In this document: piece after piece, positions 36,019-48,328 of the stretch | How the letters are laid out: each line of letters begins with the position of its first letter | Numbering within the stretch: position 1 is the first letter of the stretch | Assembly: GCA_019454125.1 (NCBI GenBank) | Contig: CP075365.1 | Span: 1,234,218 to 1,298,217 of the forward strand | Direction of reading: 5' to 3' | DNA from: Fimbriimonadaceae bacterium | GTDB taxonomy: Bacteria > Armatimonadota > Fimbriimonadia > Fimbriimonadales > Fimbriimonadaceae | Length of the DNA: 64,000 nt | Made by a program: the position numbers and the translations under genes | The notes under the pieces: model-generated | Database searches by the model: none | Told to the model about the DNA's origin: nothing | Seen by the model: only the letters and a program-made list of their open reading frames with translations

Positions 36019-37392
36019 ATGGCCGCCCTCCTCCAGCCCGGCATCCTTCCGAAGCGCAACAAAACCGTGCGCGGCACGTACTTCGTGCAGACCTGGGGGT
36101 GCCAGATGAATGAGGAGGACAGCGAACAGATCGCGCTCTACCTGGAGAACCTTGGCCTCGCCCGGGCCGAGAGCCCCCGCGAGGCACACGTGGTCGTGCT
36201 GAACACCTGCAGCGTCCGCAAGAAGCCGGAGGACAAGGCGTTCAGCTTCCTCGGATTCCTGCGCGAGATCAAGGCCTCGCGGCCTGAGATGGTGGTGGGG
36301 GTGGCGGGGTGCATGGCCCAGCTCCGCGCCGACGAGATCCGACAGCGCAATCCCCACGTGGACTTCGTCGTGGGCACCGCCCAGGTGAGCGCCATCCCCG
36401 GCCTCGTCGAGCAAGCCCTCCAGCAGAAGCGTTTCGAGAAGCGACTGGATCTCCCCGAGCGAAAGGGGGCGGTCGTCACCGACATTCCCCAGCGCCAGAT
36501 CGAACGACGCGGCAAGCTCAAGGCGTTCGTGCCGATCCAGTACGGCTGCGACAAGTTCTGCACGTTTTGCATCGTGCCGACCACCCGCGGCCGCGAACGG
36601 TCAAGGCCGACCCAGCACATCGTCGAGGAGGTCCGCCGCCTCGCCGAGCTCGGAACCCGCGAGGTCACGCTGCTCGGCCAGACCGTCAACTCCTATGGCA
36701 AGAACCTGGCCGAGGGGAACGTGCCGTTCTCGACGCTCCTGCGCCTGCTCGCGGGCATTCCCGGCCTGGAGCGCATCCGCTACACGTCCCCCTACCCGCG
36801 CGACTTCAAGCACGACCTCATTGAGACGATCCGCGCAGTCCCCGAGGTCATGGAGCACTGTCACATGCCGCTCCAGGCGGGCGACGACGGGTTGCTGAAG
36901 CGCATGAAGAGGCTCTACACGGTCGAGTCCTATGCCGCGATCGTCGCGGAACTCAGGGCGGCTGTGCCCGGGATCGGCCTCACCACCGACATCATCGTCG
37001 GCTTCCCCGGCGAGACCGACCTGGAGTTCCAGGCCACCTTGGACGCGATGGAGCGGTTCCAGTTCGACGGGGCGTACATGTTCAAGTACAGCCCCCGCCC
37101 CGGCACCCCCGCCGCCGAGATGGAACAGGTCGACCCCCTGGTCGCCAAGACGAGGCTGGACAAGCTGATCGAGGTGCAGACCGCCATCACCTGTGCCCGC
37201 AACGCCGCACTCGTGGGACAATCGTTCGAGGTGCTGGTCGAGGGCCCGACCCCCAAGAACCCCTCCCTCATTCAAGGCTACTCCCGCTGCTTTCGCATGC
37301 TCCACTTCCCGGCGAAGCCGGAGTGGGTCGGCGAGTTGGTCACGGTACGGGCGACTGAGGGCCACCTTTGGGGATTGAGCGGTACGGCGTAG
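36019..37392 (+). CDS. miaB: tRNA-2-methylthio-N6-dimethylallyladenosine synthase (MiaB)
   Basis: Radical-SAM methylthiotransferase for position 37 of tRNA. The N-terminal UPF0004 domain has three cluster cysteines (TWGCQMNEEDSEQ, LNTCSVRKK, VAGCMAQLR). The radical SAM motif is YGCDKFCTFCIVPTTRG, followed by RYTSPYPRDF and a C-terminal TRAM domain. 457 aa. Divergent from the VKOR-DsbA gene. Its 3' end is followed by a large foldback region. Confidence 0.96.
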   Translation: MAALLQPGILPKRNKTVRGTYFVQTWGCQMNEEDSEQIALYLENLGLARAESPREAHVVVLNTCSVRKKPEDKAFSFLGFLREIKASRPEMVVGVAGCMAQLRADEIRQRNPHVDFVVGTAQVSAIPGLVEQALQQKRFEKRLDLPERKGAVVTDIPQRQIERRGKLKAFVPIQYGCDKFCTFCIVPTTRGRERSRPTQHIVEEVRRLAELGTREVTLLGQTVNSYGKNLAEGNVPFSTLLRLLAGIPGLERIRYTSPYPRDFKHDLIETIRAVPEVMEHCHMPLQAGDDGLLKRMKRLYTVESYAAIVAELRAAVPGIGLTTDIIVGFPGETDLEFQATLDAMERFQFDGAYMFKYSPRPGTPAAEMEQVDPLVAKTRLDKLIEVQTAITCARNAALVGQSFEVLVEGPTPKNPSLIQGYSRCFRMLHFPAKPEWVGELVTVRATEGHLWGLSGTA

Positions 37393-37411
37393 GGGAAGCT
37401 CCGTGGTAGCC

Positions 37412-37502
37412 GCAGGCTGTCGGCCCATGCGGCAGCAATGGGTCGATCCCTGCGGGCGGGAAAGGTGAGTCGCGGGACGCAGGGATCCTCCGGACAGCCT
37501 GC
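37412..37502. repeat. nested inverted repeat downstream of miaB
   Basis: Outer arms GCAGGCTGTC (37412-37421) and GACAGCCTGC (37493-37502), inner arms GATCCCTGCG (37445-37454) and CGCAGGGATC (37478-37487), all perfect. It can fold into one 91-nt cruciform or RNA hairpin 20 nt after the miaB stop. Confidence 0.7.
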
Positions 37503-37503
37503 C

Positions 37504-37530
37504 ACCCTCTCCTTCGGCGAAGGAGAGGGT
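37504..37530. repeat. 27-nt perfect palindrome
   Basis: Arms ACCCTCTCCTTCG (37504-37516) and CGAAGGAGAGGGT (37518-37530) around a single G. The CTCTCC/GGAGAG core is shared with the dispersed repeat at 37617-37674. A further hairpin follows, with arms CGAACCGGG (37543-37551) and CCCGGTTCG (37561-37569). Confidence 0.7.
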
Positions 37531-37616
37531 CGGTGAGCGAAGCGAACCGGGGTGAGGTTTCCCGGTTCGGGGTTGCGCAAGCTCTAAGCGAGCCCTTTAG
37601 GTCCCCACCGCCGGGG

Positions 37617-37674
37617 AAACCTCACCCCCAACCCCCTCTCCTTCGCAGGAGGAGAGGGGGCTCCGGACTGCGTC
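37617..37674. repeat. dispersed palindromic repeat, copy 1
   Basis: 58 bp identical, in inverted orientation, to 44051-44108. Its core is a hairpin with 11-bp arms CCCCCTCTCCT (37632-37642) and AGGAGAGGGGG (37650-37660). The flank AACCTCACCCCC recurs again at about 37878-37889. This is the REP-like intergenic repeat style seen in many GC-rich genomes. Confidence 0.8.
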
Positions 37675-38098
37675 CCGCGCAAGACCGGGCCGATCTGGCC
37701 CCCCGGCTGATCCTATGGATCTGGGCCACGGGGCCAGCTGGTCATCCCCTCTTTAACTCCCTAGAAACTCCCCAGAAACTCCCCAGAAGCTCCCCAGAAA
37801 CCGGGTTTCTGGGGAGTTTCTGGGGAGTTGGAGGCCGCTTTCTGGAGGGGTCACGCCCACCCCCCACCGCCGGGGAAACCTCACCCCCCAACCCGCTTGC
37901 CGAAGCTGGCCCCCGGCCAGAGCCGCGGCCATGCTTTGCGTTCGTCACGATTTGGGCCACCGGTTACGGGGTGTCCGATGCTCAGCAGTCCCGTGGGCCT
38001 TGCCTTGCTGACTTAGCTGCCCCACCAGACAACTGCGGTACGCGCGGATTTTGCCCGGTTTTATTCGCTAATGCTTGCGCAACGAGGGGCTGGGGGGC
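37675..38098. other. non-coding repeat-rich intergenic DNA
   Basis: The open frame crossing this stretch is Pro/Arg-rich without protein-like character. It contains four tandem 11-nt units of AAACTCCCCAG type from 37755, a long hairpin (37777-37829), and a second partial copy of the GGGGAAACCTCACCCCC flank (about 37872). Nothing gene-like is seen until the GTG at 38112. Confidence 0.6.
37777..37829. repeat. 26-bp hairpin built from 11-nt repeats
   Basis: Left arm 37777-37802 and right arm 37804-37829 are complementary over 26 nt with one G.U pair and a one-base centre, each arm holding two AACTCCCCAGA-type 11-mers. An almost perfect foldback of this length is rare outside mobile or regulatory elements. 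Confidence 0.75.
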
Positions 38099-38111: not shown

Positions 38112-38833
38112 GTGAGGGCAGTAAGAACTCTTAGTAGACACACCTTGGCGAGGTGCGTTGCGGCATTATTCCTTTTTGCCCTCGGCGTTCCAGCTCGTGC
38201 TGACTTCCTTTACGGACTTTCTACAAGCCGTGAACTGGTCAAGATCGATCTGGACACCTATTCAGTCGAGGTTGTTGGAAACCTGGGCAAAGGGGCTGCG
38301 GTGCAAGGCTTGTTTTAGGGCCCCGCCAACGGCCTGTACGCGGTTGGCAACAAGTCCGCCTTCTATTTACTTGACCAAAGGACTGGTCGGGCCAAGGAGA
38401 TAGGGATCGCATGGGATCCGGAAGTAGCACAGTGGCCTACGATCTAACCAAGAACCAGTACATGGGGATCGCGTCCCCCAGCTTCTGTGAAGTTGACCCT
38501 GCCGATGGCTCGGTAGTGCGGATGTTTACCGGTCAGTCTATCTACCGCCATCTTCTTTTCGTCCCTGAGATTGGATTGGTGACATCCTCACAATTCGGTG
38601 ACCTTTACCGAGTCGATTGGGACGCAACGTTTACCTTCTTGGTAAGTCCTGGGGTCATTTATGATTCATTGGCCTTTGACCCGGTTCGAAGAGTCGTCTG
38701 GGGCGAAAGGAACAATCGCCTTGTTAAACTCGAACCTTATAACGGATGGAGAGAGACCGAGGTCAAGCGACCATTCCCGACAATGTGGGCCCTTGCCTAT
38801 TCGTCGCCCCTTCCCTCAAGAGCTAGGAAGTAG
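38112..38833 (+). pseudogene. secreted beta-propeller-like protein, nonsense and frameshift mutations
   Basis: GTG 38112 opens a signal peptide (CVAALFLFALGVPARAD) and a propeller-like start (LYGLSTSRELVKIDLDTYSV). A TAG at 38316-38318 stops it; the same frame then continues sensibly (GPANGLYAVGNKSAFYLLDQ) to about 38400. From about 38411 another frame takes over (STVAYDLTKNQYMGIASPSF ... VRRVVWGERNNRLVKLEP) to the stop at 38833. One nonsense codon plus one frameshift indicate a decayed gene. TAAAGT (38099-38104), 7 nt before GTG, suggests the promoter is still intact. Confidence 0.75.
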
Positions 38834-38866: not shown

Positions 38867-39985
38867 TTAGCGCGGCAAACGAGTCGGAGCGGTAGAACGG
38901 CTGACGGAGACGACCGCGTCGAAGCGGTCGGCGGGCACGAACGTGAGCACGCCACCGTTCTCTGGCTCGGCCGCGGCTAGCGGCTCGCGGAAGGCACTGG
39001 TCGTCGCGAACCAGGCCTCGCCTTCGGCGGGGAACTTAGAGGGGAGCCCGTCGGGTGCTGCGGGGAGAGGGCGAACCGCGCGCTCCCAGTGAGCGTAGAA
39101 CTCGCCCTCCCGCGCGAACAGACCAATGGCGTAAGTCTTCGCCCCGAGTTTATCGCGTAAAGTATCGCCCAAGATTCGATACCCCAGGCCACGGCCAATA
39201 TGGCCATTGTGCGCCCAGACAACCGCACGCCCCTTGCCCAAACCAGCAAGGGTTCGCTCGGCCATAATCTGGTCGCGAAGCGCCATCCTCTCTACGAGCG
39301 GAGTGTCGGGTCTGTAATTCCAATAACGTCGGAGATCCTTCACGGCCTGACGAAGAGTGGAAGACGCGACTCTCTCGGCAGTCTTGAAGCGGATCGAGCC
39401 CAACTTTTTGTCAAAGTCCTTGAGCCATTCGAGATAAGAATCGCGCGCTTTGTTGAATTCTTCTGGCTGGTCGGTCTTGCCAAGGAACTGGTACCCTTCG
39501 CCTAGCCGTTTTGCTGCCTCTTCGGCAAGGCTGGGCTCGTACGGCTTGATGAGGTCTGAGACTAGCGTGAGCACCGCGTCGGAAGAGAATTGCGGATCCA
39601 TCCCCAGGACCCGTAGTTTGGGTCGCGACTTGATATAGGTGAAGAGGGGCAGCGCTTCCTTCCAACAGAAATTGTCGAACACCGTGCTCTCCATAAGTTC
39701 ACGGTCGCTTAACCCATTCCGCTGCGCCATGGCAAGGTTCGTCTCCAACGCCCCGCTCTCTAAAATGAGGGTGTCGTAACCCAACTCATCGTGAAGAAAC
39801 TTCACGAGACGGGTCTTCAATAAGTAGAACTCAGCCGTGCCATGGGTCGCTTCGCCCAACTGCACGAGAGACTTGCCTCGCAATTCTTGCCTTAAGAAGC
39901 CAAGGTCGGCGTAGTCGTCGCCTTCCAGCGCCACATGTTGGGCGACCAAGGTTTGCCCTATGGCGATCGCGGCGAGCCACGTCAT
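38867..39985 (-). CDS. erythromycin esterase family protein
   Basis: 372 aa. The EreA/EreB-like superfamily motif is LVQLGEATHGTAEFYLLKTR, with the catalytic His in GEATHG; VVWAHNGHIGRG is the second conserved block. Chromosomal members often act on unknown esters rather than macrolides. The N-terminal LAAIAIGQTLVAQ may be a signal peptide, making it exported. TAGGAT (complement of 39994-39999) lies 8 nt before ATG 39985. Confidence 0.88.
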   Translation of the reverse strand: MTWLAAIAIGQTLVAQHVALEGDDYADLGFLRQELRGKSLVQLGEATHGTAEFYLLKTRLVKFLHDELGYDTLILESGALETNLAMAQRNGLSDRELMESTVFDNFCWKEALPLFTYIKSRPKLRVLGMDPQFSSDAVLTLVSDLIKPYEPSLAEEAAKRLGEGYQFLGKTDQPEEFNKARDSYLEWLKDFDKKLGSIRFKTAERVASSTLRQAVKDLRRYWNYRPDTPLVERMALRDQIMAERTLAGLGKGRAVVWAHNGHIGRGLGYRILGDTLRDKLGAKTYAIGLFAREGEFYAHWERAVRPLPAAPDGLPSKFPAEGEAWFATTSAFREPLAAAEPENGGVLTFVPADRFDAVVSVSRSTAPTRLPR

Positions 39986-40132: not shown

Positions 40133-40711
40133 ATGGCCAAAATCCTGATCGCCTATGCCACCAGCTATGGCCAGACGGCAAAGATCGCGGCGAAGATCGC
40201 CGATTGGGCCAACGCGCGGGGCCATGAGGCGGTGCTCTTCGACACGGGCGCCCGCAATCCGGAACCGGATTTGACCGGTTTCGACGCCATCGTGCTGGCG
40301 GGATCGATCGTGCAGGCCCGGCACCAAACGTCCTTGGTGTCCTGGGCAAAGCGCAACGCCTCCGCCTCAAAGGAGCGGCCGTCGCTGTTCCTCTCCGTGA
40401 GCATGTCCGCCCACGGCACCGAGCCCCGCCACCGCCAAGACGTTGCGAAGTGCATACGCGGGTTCTTGGAGGAGACGGGTTGGTGCCCGACGCTCTCGCT
40501 GCCGGTCGCGGGGGCGCTCGCCTACCGCAAGTACGGCTGGCTGATCCGGCTCATGATGCGGAGGATCGTGGCGAAAGAGGGCGGCGACACCGACACCTCC
40601 CGCGACTACGAGTACACCGACTGGGCGAAGCTGGAAGGGGACTTCGACGCCTTCCTCCGCGCGCTCCCGGAGGGCGCCCCCAGCCTCGCAGAGCCGGCCG
40701 CGACCCAGTAG
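40133..40711 (+). CDS. HemG-like flavodoxin-domain protein (protoporphyrinogen IX dehydrogenase family)
   Basis: 192 aa. The flavodoxin FMN loop is ILIAYATSYGQTAKIA, followed by VLAGSIVQARHQ. The later block with AGALAYRKYGWLIRLMMRRI and YEYTDWAKLEGDF aligns with E. coli HemG, which oxidises protoporphyrinogen IX using menaquinone. No other heme genes are nearby, so the substrate is inferred. The segment coding FLEETGWCPTLSLPV (40461-40507) is the source of, or shares origin with, the units of the array directly downstream. Confidence 0.85.
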   Translation: MAKILIAYATSYGQTAKIAAKIADWANARGHEAVLFDTGARNPEPDLTGFDAIVLAGSIVQARHQTSLVSWAKRNASASKERPSLFLSVSMSAHGTEPRHRQDVAKCIRGFLEETGWCPTLSLPVAGALAYRKYGWLIRLMMRRIVAKEGGDTDTSRDYEYTDWAKLEGDFDAFLRALPEGAPSLAEPAATQ

Positions 40712-40736: not shown

Positions 40737-41371
40737 TCCCCCCCCCCTTGCCCAAGCCTGGGGGGGGGGAGAGGCGTCAACGGGTTCTTGGCGGAGACGG
40801 GTAGGGGCCTGACGCTCTGCCTGCCGGCCTCCCCTCCCCCTTGCCCCCTCCCCAAGCCTGGGGAGGGGGAGAGGCGTCAACGGTTCTTGGCGGAGACGGG
40901 TAGGAGCCCGACGCTCTGCCTGCCGGCCTCCCCTCCCCCTTGCCCCCTCCCCAAGCCTGGGAAGGGGGGGGCGGGCGCTTGGAGGAGACGGGTAGGAGCC
41001 CGACGCTCTGCGTGCCGGCCTCCCCTCCCCCTTGCCCCCTCCCCAAGCCTGGCGAGGGGGGGGAGGCGTCAAGGGGTTCTTGGAGGAGACGGGTTGGAGC
41101 CCGACGCTCTGCCTGCCGGTCTCCCCTCCCCCCTGCCCCCTCCCCAAGACTGGGGAGGGGGAGGGGCGTCAAAGGGTTCTTGGAGGAGACGGGTTTGGGC
41201 CTGACGCTCTCCCTGCCGGGCTCCCCTCCCCCTTGCCCCCTCCCCAAGCCTGGGGAGGGGGGAGAGGCGTCACAGGGCTTGGAGGAGACGGGTAGGAGCC
41301 CGACGCTCTGCCTGCCGGCCTCCCCTCCCCCTTGCCCCCTCCCCAAGCCTGGGGAGGGGGGAGAGGCGTCA
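40737..41371. repeat. tandem array: six copies of a flavodoxin-gene fragment alternating with seven GC hairpins
   Basis: Six units of 92-101 bp (marker GAGACGGG ends at 40801, 40900, 40992, 41093, 41193, 41292). Each has about 47 bp matching 40461-40507 of the preceding gene, best in copy 4 (41075-41121, 44 of 47 identical). A C-rich run and a hairpin of CCCCCTCCCC and GGGGAGGGGG around AAGCCT follow. Each unit ends near GAGGCGTCA, the same bases that contain the corA stop at the right edge. Long open frames on both strands arise from the repeats and are not genes. Not a CRISPR: the units are long, imperfect and lack unique spacers. Confidence 0.85.
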
Positions 41372-42337
41372 CAGGTAGCCGCGGCGCTTGAAGACCGCGA
41401 TCACGACCAGGCTCGCGACCACCATGCTGACGAGCGCAAGGGGGTACCCGTAGCGGAGCTGCAGCTCCGGCATGTATTGAAAGTTCATGCCATAGATCCC
41501 GGCGATTAGGGAGCTGACCATGAGCAGGGTCGAGACCACGGTCAAAGTCCGCATCACCTCGTTCAGCCGGTTGCTCACGAGCCCGATCTGCGCGTCCATG
41601 ATAGACGTCAAGATGTCGCGCCCAAGGTCAATGTTCTCGCTTAAGCGCATGCAATGGTTGTAGACGTCGTTAAACGCTAAGATCTGGTCTTTCGGCACAA
41701 GCGGTTCGCCATAGCGGACTAACGCGTTGATATTATCGCGGACGGGGGCGATCTGCTTTCGCATGACGAGCAAGTCCCGTTTCAGCGCGAGCGCAGGGCC
41801 GGGTTGCACCCGCGCCTGCTCGAAGACGGTGTCCTCCAAGTCCTCGATCTTCTCGTGGAAGGTGTCCAGCACCGGGAAATAGCCGTCGACGAGGGCGTCC
41901 AACAGGCTGTGCAAGAGGGTGCCCTGGTCTGGGCCGACGTCGTCGGTGTCCTCGATCCAATCCTGGAAGACCTCGTCCACCACTGGCACCGGTTCCCGCG
42001 TGAGCGTCACGATCCGGCGAGCAGAGGCGAAGACGGCGACCGGCTGATAGACAGGCTCGGAGGCGTAAAAGTGGGTGGCCGTCAGCATGAACCCGAAGAC
42101 ACCGTTGCGGCGTTCAATCCCGGCGCGCATGTGGCCGCTGAGGGCGTCCTCGATCGTCAGTGGGCAGAGATCGACCAGGGTCCGCGCGACTTCGGGCAGG
42201 TGGTCGAGGTCGCTTGCGACCGCGTTCACCCAGAGCAGCGCGTCCGGATCGACCTGGTCGCCCGGCAGGGCCAGCGGTCTTGCCTCCAACCCCACGAGCT
42301 GCGCCGCGCGTACGGAGCCGACCAAAGCCTCTGCCAT
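41369..42337 (-). CDS. corA: CorA family magnesium/divalent cation channel
   Basis: 322 aa. N-terminal soluble funnel domain, long stalk helix (KIEDLEDTVFEQARVQPGPA) and two C-terminal helices with the selectivity motif IYGMNFQYMPEL between them. It ends FKRRGYL, the basic sphincter tail. ATG 42337 is preferred over the frame opening at 42826 because TAGAAG (complement of 42345-42350) lies 7 nt before it and homology starts here. Its stop codon lies inside the last unit of the repeat array. Confidence 0.94.
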   Translation of the reverse strand: MAEALVGSVRAAQLVGLEARPLALPGDQVDPDALLWVNAVASDLDHLPEVARTLVDLCPLTIEDALSGHMRAGIERRNGVFGFMLTATHFYASEPVYQPVAVFASARRIVTLTREPVPVVDEVFQDWIEDTDDVGPDQGTLLHSLLDALVDGYFPVLDTFHEKIEDLEDTVFEQARVQPGPALALKRDLLVMRKQIAPVRDNINALVRYGEPLVPKDQILAFNDVYNHCMRLSENIDLGRDILTSIMDAQIGLVSNRLNEVMRTLTVVSTLLMVSSLIAGIYGMNFQYMPELQLRYGYPLALVSMVVASLVVIAVFKRRGYL

Positions 42338-43923: not shown

Positions 43924-43967
43924 TGTCGTCCGGTCGTCGTCCGATTGTCGTCCGATTGTCGTCCGAT
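43924..43967. repeat. four tandem 11-bp repeats (copy A of a dispersed element)
   Basis: Four units of consensus ATCGGACGACA read on the minus strand, one per helical turn, about 75 nt upstream of the 43848 gene. The same four units occur on plus at 48164-48207 upstream of the 48329 gene, with further similarity in the flanks (CCCTTCGT and TCGTCGCC). In both cases the repeat reads in the direction of the gene it precedes. Confidence 0.8.
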
Positions 43968-44050
43968 CGCGATGGGACGACGATGCGGCGACGAAGGGCC
44001 GACCAAGGGCTTCCAAAACGGGCACGCTAAATGGGACGGCCGCGACGTGC

Positions 44051-44108
44051 GACGCAGTCCGGAGCCCCCTCTCCTCCTGCGAAGGAGAGGGGGTTGGGGG
44101 TGAGGTTT
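44051..44108. repeat. dispersed palindromic repeat, copy 2 (inverted)
   Basis: Exact 58-bp inverted duplicate of 37617-37674, including the 11-bp-arm hairpin. Lies between the membrane protein gene and the 44190 lipoprotein gene. Confidence 0.8.
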
Positions 44109-44189
44109 GACCGGCCCTCGGACGCGAAAGCCCCGGGTGACAGAAGTCCGTGGAGAAAGCTATTGCGGGGCGTGTAAGATTTAGGCTCC

Positions 44190-48163: not shown

Positions 48164-48207
48164 ATCGGACGACAATCGGACGACAATCGGACGACGACCG
48201 GACGACA
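48164..48207. repeat. four tandem 11-bp repeats (copy B of a dispersed element)
   Basis: Units at 48164, 48175, 48186 and 48197: ATCGGACGACA twice, then ATCGGACGACG and ACCGGACGACA. Same element as 43924-43967 in inverted orientation. It lies about 120 nt upstream of the baeRF-like gene. Confidence 0.8.
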
Positions 48208-48328
48208 AGACTTGGGAAACAAGGGAGTGCGAAGGCTCGCGCTCGCTGGGGATGGGCCGCGCCGAGTCTGGCGCAGACCGTGCCACCCCACCCAAGACCG
48301 CAAAGTGCCGCTTCGCCATACTCAGGGC

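Follow-up and report, generated by a model that had tools for sequence, protein, structure and literature searches.

The 490 nt downstream of a miaB-like gene are a genome-specific pile-up of dispersed palindromic elements, in which several kinds are mixed. Here we describe the anatomy of these elements, their dispersal and their clustering, together with a covariation of three strands that extends across hundreds of relatives. The explanation that we favor, with a probability of about three in four, combines this pile-up with the assignment of two of its elements, B and C, to the BoxC/PIT kind, for which a triplex fold is predicted. The cluster lies in a window (the whole stretch of DNA that was analysed, 64 kb long) of a 2.65-Mb genome that consists of a single contig and is assigned, by its relatives, to the family Fimbriimonadaceae in the phylum Armatimonadota.

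An initial annotation, made from the letters of the window, had listed five foldbacks within positions 37412-37900, and all five are present there (Table 1). The concentration that it reported is real, as the 490 nt after miaB form the densest segment of the 64 kb and exceed every one of 500 shuffles. Perfect inverted-repeat arms of at least 10 nt cover 207 of these 490 nt, which ranks first among 908 overlapping segments; arm coverage averages 6.9 nt over the segments and is zero in 711 of the 908, and 500 dinucleotide shuffles gave a mean of 7.0 and a maximum of 62. The statement that no gene is present also holds, since the cluster is crossed by mechanical ORFs only.

Table 1. Positions of the cluster's features, its upstream neighbor and a further C copy within the 64-kb window
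Feature	Position	Strand	Remark
miaB-like gene (UPF0004, Radical SAM, TRAM)	36019..37392	+	upstream neighbor of the cluster
Element A, ~90-bp nested inverted repeat	37406..37502		9 counted genome sites
Nested 91-nt inverted repeat, outer arms	37412-37421/37493-37502		
Nested 91-nt inverted repeat, inner arms	37445-37454/37478-37487		
Perfect 12-nt arms	37471-37482 + 37668-37679		enclose the 3' part of A, plus B and C
27-nt palindrome	37504-37530		
Element B, PIT-like with hairpin linker	37505..37559	+	10 successive allowed triads
B, pyrimidine strand	37505-37514		
B, purine strand	37520-37529		
B, linker hairpin	37530-37549		
B, third strand	37550-37559		
CGAACCGGG hairpin, arms	37543-37551/37561-37569		
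Direct repeat, 33 nt	37603-37635/37862-37894		
Element C, BoxC/PIT with TT linker	37620..37660	-	inverted relative to B
C, third strand	37620-37629		from 37618 if the flanking TT is counted
Dispersed hairpin, arms	37632-37642/37650-37660		
Palindrome D	37695..37737 (about)		no significant second genome copy
Element E, hairpin of 11-nt units (AACTCCCCAGA)	37755..37829		one other copy
26-bp hairpin of 11-nt units	37777-37802/37804-37829		within 37755-37829
C2, C-element third strand with flank	37862..37894	-	hairpin part absent; remnant
Second C copy in the window	44065..44105	+	97% over 44051-44115 including flanks

Several features surround the cluster. Just 3' of it (38112-38833), two ORFs in different frames resemble one broken gene, with an in-frame stop and a frame change, and the second part has no Pfam match. 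A gene for an erythromycin-esterase-like protein on the minus strand (38870-39985) and a flavodoxin-domain gene (40133-40708) follow. The second-densest foldback region of the window is a G+C-rich tandem repeat of 99 bp, present in 6.4 copies with a CCCCCTCCCCAAGCCTGGGGAGGGGG hairpin (40744-41375), and two 11-bp tandem-repeat arrays with reverse-complementary units lie 4.2 kb apart (43925-43969 and 48164-48208).

B and C are related elements, each of which consists of a pyrimidine strand, a purine strand and then the third strand GGGTGAGG (class II). Read on its own strand, C has the order CCCCCTCTCC-loop-AGGAGAGGGGG-TT-GGGGGTGAGGT; 12 of the 13 triads examined are allowed, where the threshold is 8 or more, and outside the core the second pair of its stem is C/A, which is not Watson-Crick. 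B has this kind of stem and tail, with a linker of 20 nt that is a small hairpin in its own right, around GCGAAGC. On a strand made single by transcription or replication, the purine part would pair with the pyrimidine part as a hairpin, and the 3' tail GGGTGAGG(TT) would fold back into the hairpin's major groove through reverse-Hoogsteen bonds, giving a three-stranded stem. The path to the third strand would be a two-base linker in C and a small hairpin of its own in B.

A repetition check, in which a complete lack of recurrence would have spoken against the initial annotation, found A, B, C and E to recur in the genome. Element A has one other nearly full copy (88%), and the other copy of E (1418105-1418216, 81%) likewise adjoins a C element. 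The repeat sites cluster genome-wide: 36 sites, derived from 61 match rows that include the window's own after reverse-strand duplicates and the weakest rows were dropped, have 10 neighbors within 300 bp, compared with 0.15 under uniform placement. Four of these close neighbors are the window cluster and six lie elsewhere in the genome. Confinement to intergenic DNA could account for part of the clustering; by our estimate it would raise the expectation about tenfold, still below the observed neighbor count. The proposal of a landing zone for palindromic elements thus stands in outline, given that the parts are dispersed repeats and that clustering is genome-wide. Places at which the predicted fold stalls polymerases may become open to the insertion of other palindromic elements, and clusters would grow in this way.

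The cluster is specific to this genome: of 19 relatives, none has it downstream of miaB. At that position one relative (G023) carries an inverted pair of the same element kind in different surrounding sequence, and another (G005) carries a fragment. No empty site was found among the relatives compared, whose sequences after miaB differ from one another. The element kind itself is widespread. A stem-plus-tail pattern with a linker of 1-25 nt matches in 92 of 151 related genomes, with up to 182 matches per genome, and its reversed control gave 4 matches overall; a long-linker pattern of the B type (10-34 nt) matches in 71 of 291 genomes of the phylum, with 2 for the control. Both linker patterns also match at least 120 stretches of viral contigs, as counted among the matches listed from a sample of that collection, in which contigs have no assigned host. 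Close copies of B or C were not detected among 72,556 plasmid records at E 1e-5.

In G023, a ~115-bp inverted PIT pair occurs in about 30 copies, some of them in tandem at a spacing of about 226 bp. For this genome we considered a mobile unit whose ends coincide with the tags and rejected it, as most of 17 units share sequence past the tags; 3 of the 17 have other flanks, and no target duplications were found around the 17 units. Because the units share sequence beyond the tags and lack target duplications, we claim neither a unit boundary nor an insertion mechanism. Separately, the metagenome-assembled genome JADZEW01, titled Methanoregulaceae archaeon SJ84, corresponds to G011, which belongs to the same bacterial family as the window, and is probably mislabelled.

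In purine-motif triads, a third-strand T or A suits an A-T pair and a G suits a G-C pair. Binding of the tail to the stem would therefore require every tail base to suit the base pair that it faces, while positions just beyond the core are free to vary. We examined 624 distinct elements, of which 524 came from viral contigs (among the matches listed) and 100 from Armatimonadota loci; only elements with a paired first position were counted, and elements with another tag or purine core inside the linker were dropped. At the first position past the core, stem A is faced by T in 118 elements, A in 11, G in 1 and C in 4, and stem G by T in 8, A in 7, G in 358 and C in 5 (Fisher p 1.8e-96). At the second position, the corresponding counts are T 41, A 11, G 5 and C 13 for stem A, and T 4, A 0, G 94 and C 13 for stem G (p 5e-25). 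The third free position showed no stem-tail association in the same element set. An interior core position behaves in the same three-strand manner among the viral-contig matches listed: stem G is faced by tail G in 119, A in 7 and C in 2, and stem A by tail A in 303, T in 2 and C in 1. The stem-A count includes loci from earlier patterns requiring TGAGG, and a free-letter scan contributed only 8 loci beyond those of the earlier patterns. Overall, covariation at three positions gave p of about 1e-98, 1e-96 and 1e-24, with elements counted without a tree.

Mutual information is highest at the predicted register and has dropped almost to that of shuffles at offset 3. Longer purine runs go with longer third-strand runs (rho 0.76, n=464), a stronger correlation than the 0.46 between the lengths of the two hairpin strands. 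By reasoning, neither Watson-Crick pairs between the tail and one strand of the hairpin, nor a quadruplex, nor a protein tag predicts the observed pattern, and DNA copying yields direct or complementary repeats, not mirror repeats. Our search of the open-access literature found no earlier published evidence of three-strand covariation. These counts over hundreds of relatives suggest, from sequence comparison, that the unusual fold matters in nature. In addition, a C in the purine strand tends to face a third-strand T (7 of 7 at position 1 and 26 of 49 at position 2), which is possibly a further natural triad.

The long-linker class to which B belongs keeps the covariation, with A facing T in 10 of 10 and G facing G in 138 of 143. 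Its linkers often fold themselves: 85 of 122 distinct long linkers in the viral set (among the matches listed) equal or surpass 95% of their own shuffles in folding, as do 13 of 32 distinct linkers from Armatimonadota loci. The same level is reached by 51 of 80 distinct linkers from a phylum-wide pattern scan, a set that overlaps the Armatimonadota loci and leaves out linkers containing a second tag. Roughly one long linker in three does not reach the 95% level, and the linker of B by itself also falls short of it (fraction 0.10). Linker stems also change on both sides, from GGCTC/GAGCC to GATTC/GAATC or the reverse within one genome (G150), and between GGCCC/GGGCC and GGCGC/GCGCC within another (G166). 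Since many linkers fold, their stems change on two sides and the tail covaries in this class, it seems that hairpin-linked elements are a second architecture in their own right.

The initial annotation called one hairpin REP-like. That label is half right: B and C belong to the BoxC/PIT (triplex) kind and are not GTAG REPs. We consider it unlikely that they are plain REPs whose movement depends on a REP-associated tyrosine transposase (RAYT), with GGGTGAGG as a GTAG-like protein-binding tag and the triplex geometry irrelevant. Y1 genes and elements do co-occur across genomes, with elements in 78 of 106 genomes that have a PF01797 match and in 14 of 45 that have none, a comparison in which ancestry is uncontrolled. 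The inverted pairs look like REPINs, GTAG stands directly before CCCTCACC in many element pairs of G023, and one PIT lies ~0.3 kb upstream of the Y1 gene of the window's own genome, inside another ORF. However, 8 genomes with at least 10 element copies each have no PF01797 match, and the joint change of tail and stem is not predicted by a protein tag. The fetched flanks of 20 Y1 loci from other genomes, some of which end at contig ends, contain no element (0 of 20), with a bare tag 2.4-3.0 kb away at 2 of the 20.

A search for the TnpA-REP transposase, which had been recommended in the same annotation, did reveal a TnpA-REP-like gene in the genome: one Y1 transposase gene is clear, and a second scores below the cut-off of its family. 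The immediate flanks of the clear gene carry a different palindrome, GCCTCGGCACG-CGTGCCGAGGC, which is also present near the gene's 3' end and has 20 genome sites; 7 surround the Y1 gene (1373476 to 1376482), and none lies in the window. Next to the RAYT gene, sites of this RAYT-family palindrome occur at a 1107-bp spacing three times (G000:C1:1373476-1375871), as if a segment had been triplicated. With a different palindrome at the genome's own gene and 20 Y1 loci without elements, a RAYT as the general mobiliser of B and C is unsupported, and the comparison of Y1 loci revealed no dedicated enzyme for them. Given the co-occurrence of elements and Y1 genes and the GTAG in the G023 pairs, RAYTs may play a role in some lineages.

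A little less probable still is that the covariation reflects shared ancestry, with a few families, each having its own stem and tail ends, copied often. The elements do group into families, and the counts were made without an element tree. Against this, when near-identical elements that otherwise differ by no more than 2 letters were matched, 30 of 38 pairs showed a joint change of all three letters, the pattern persists in locus-level counts, and the window's own genome has both stem types, each with the fitting third base (9 of 9 and 5 of 5). Finally, a structured RNA, the other suggestion of the initial annotation, or a regulatory 3' region of miaB is very improbable: the position directly after a gene and the strong RNA folding (z-scores of -6.8 and -5.0) would suit it, but the parts recur at unrelated genome places, neither a terminator-like nor a promoter-like site was found in the cluster, purine-motif triplexes cannot form in RNA (PMC4666352, in excerpts), and we reject a conserved RNA there in view of the absence after miaB in the relatives and the lack of an Rfam match in the cluster.

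For the favored explanation, a pile-up with BoxC/PIT elements predicted to fold as triplexes, the remaining steps are conjectural. The triplex may form in the window's organism and stall polymerases, and an enzyme acting on single-stranded DNA would spread the elements. Whether intrastrand triplexes occur in cells and have importance there is a question of long standing: in E. coli, triplex folding of a TM-ECO oligonucleotide was demonstrated in vitro, the elements block polymerase in vitro and variability is raised around their sites, and footprinting revealed at most minor or transient folding in vivo (excerpts of PMC4666352). We count this footprint against the explanation, and likewise an inconsistent element in 5 of the 14 loci having both stem types, the lack of association at the third free position, the long linkers (that of B included) below the 95% level, and the searches that found no empty site, target duplication or dedicated enzyme. 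The triplex reading also gives no reason why a stem A faces A at one place but T elsewhere. RNA structures were settled by this type of evidence, covariation, which here extends over hundreds of natural elements and specifies for each base which mutations would abolish or restore the fold. More tentatively, the intrastrand triplex may be a fold under natural selection that serves as recognition signal for a widespread class of mobile DNA, in which case an enzyme of single-stranded DNA would recognise the triplex and keep the third strand in step, and the hairpin-linked form (B) would be a second, previously undescribed architecture of this signal; we regard this proposal as possible rather than probable.

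Among known systems, REP, REPIN and BIME repeats with RAYT, as portrayed in excerpts of Di Nocera et al. 2013 (PMC3733652), share with B and C short palindromic dispersed repeats, inverted pairs and mosaic clusters. B and C differ in having a third strand, no GTAG or CGTC tag and no consistent RAYT link. The RAYT palindrome GCCTCGGCACG-CGTGCCGAGGC occurs in the same genome and is likewise palindromic and dispersed, but it flanks a RAYT gene, is absent from the window and has no third strand. H-DNA arises from a mirror repeat in a duplex, whereas in B and C the three strands succeed each other on one strand with a hairpin. Purine-motif triads with an antiparallel third strand are common to both (PMC4666352, in excerpts).

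The closest relatives are BoxC elements, which are the same as PIT (potential intrastrand triplex) and TM-ECO and consist of a pyrimidine/purine hairpin followed by a purine-rich third strand; E. coli MG1655 has 23 TM-ECO, and 3610 are reported from 262 proteobacterial genomes (Holder et al. 2015, PMC4666352, in excerpts). They share with B and C the class II order with the core CCCTCNCC / GGNGAGGG / GGGTGAGG, and they are dispersed, intergenic and often in inverted pairs. B and C occur in Armatimonadota, in contrast to the proteobacterial genomes from which that source, as excerpted, reports TM-ECO. The TM-ECO pattern has a 3-nt second loop, the ITxF finder allows 1-6 nt, and Hoyne et al. 2000, as quoted in PMC4666352, set limits of 0-10 nt. 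C has a longer stem than TM-ECO and a 2-nt linker, within the ITxF range, and by its sequence it is of the known BoxC/PIT/TM-ECO kind. The 20-nt hairpin linker of B lies outside the limits of both ITxF and Hoyne et al., and B is therefore filed as a variant, not a member, of BoxC/PIT/TM-ECO. The class of B, in which a variable hairpin links the stem to the third strand, is new, and it widens the family past the reach of published searches.
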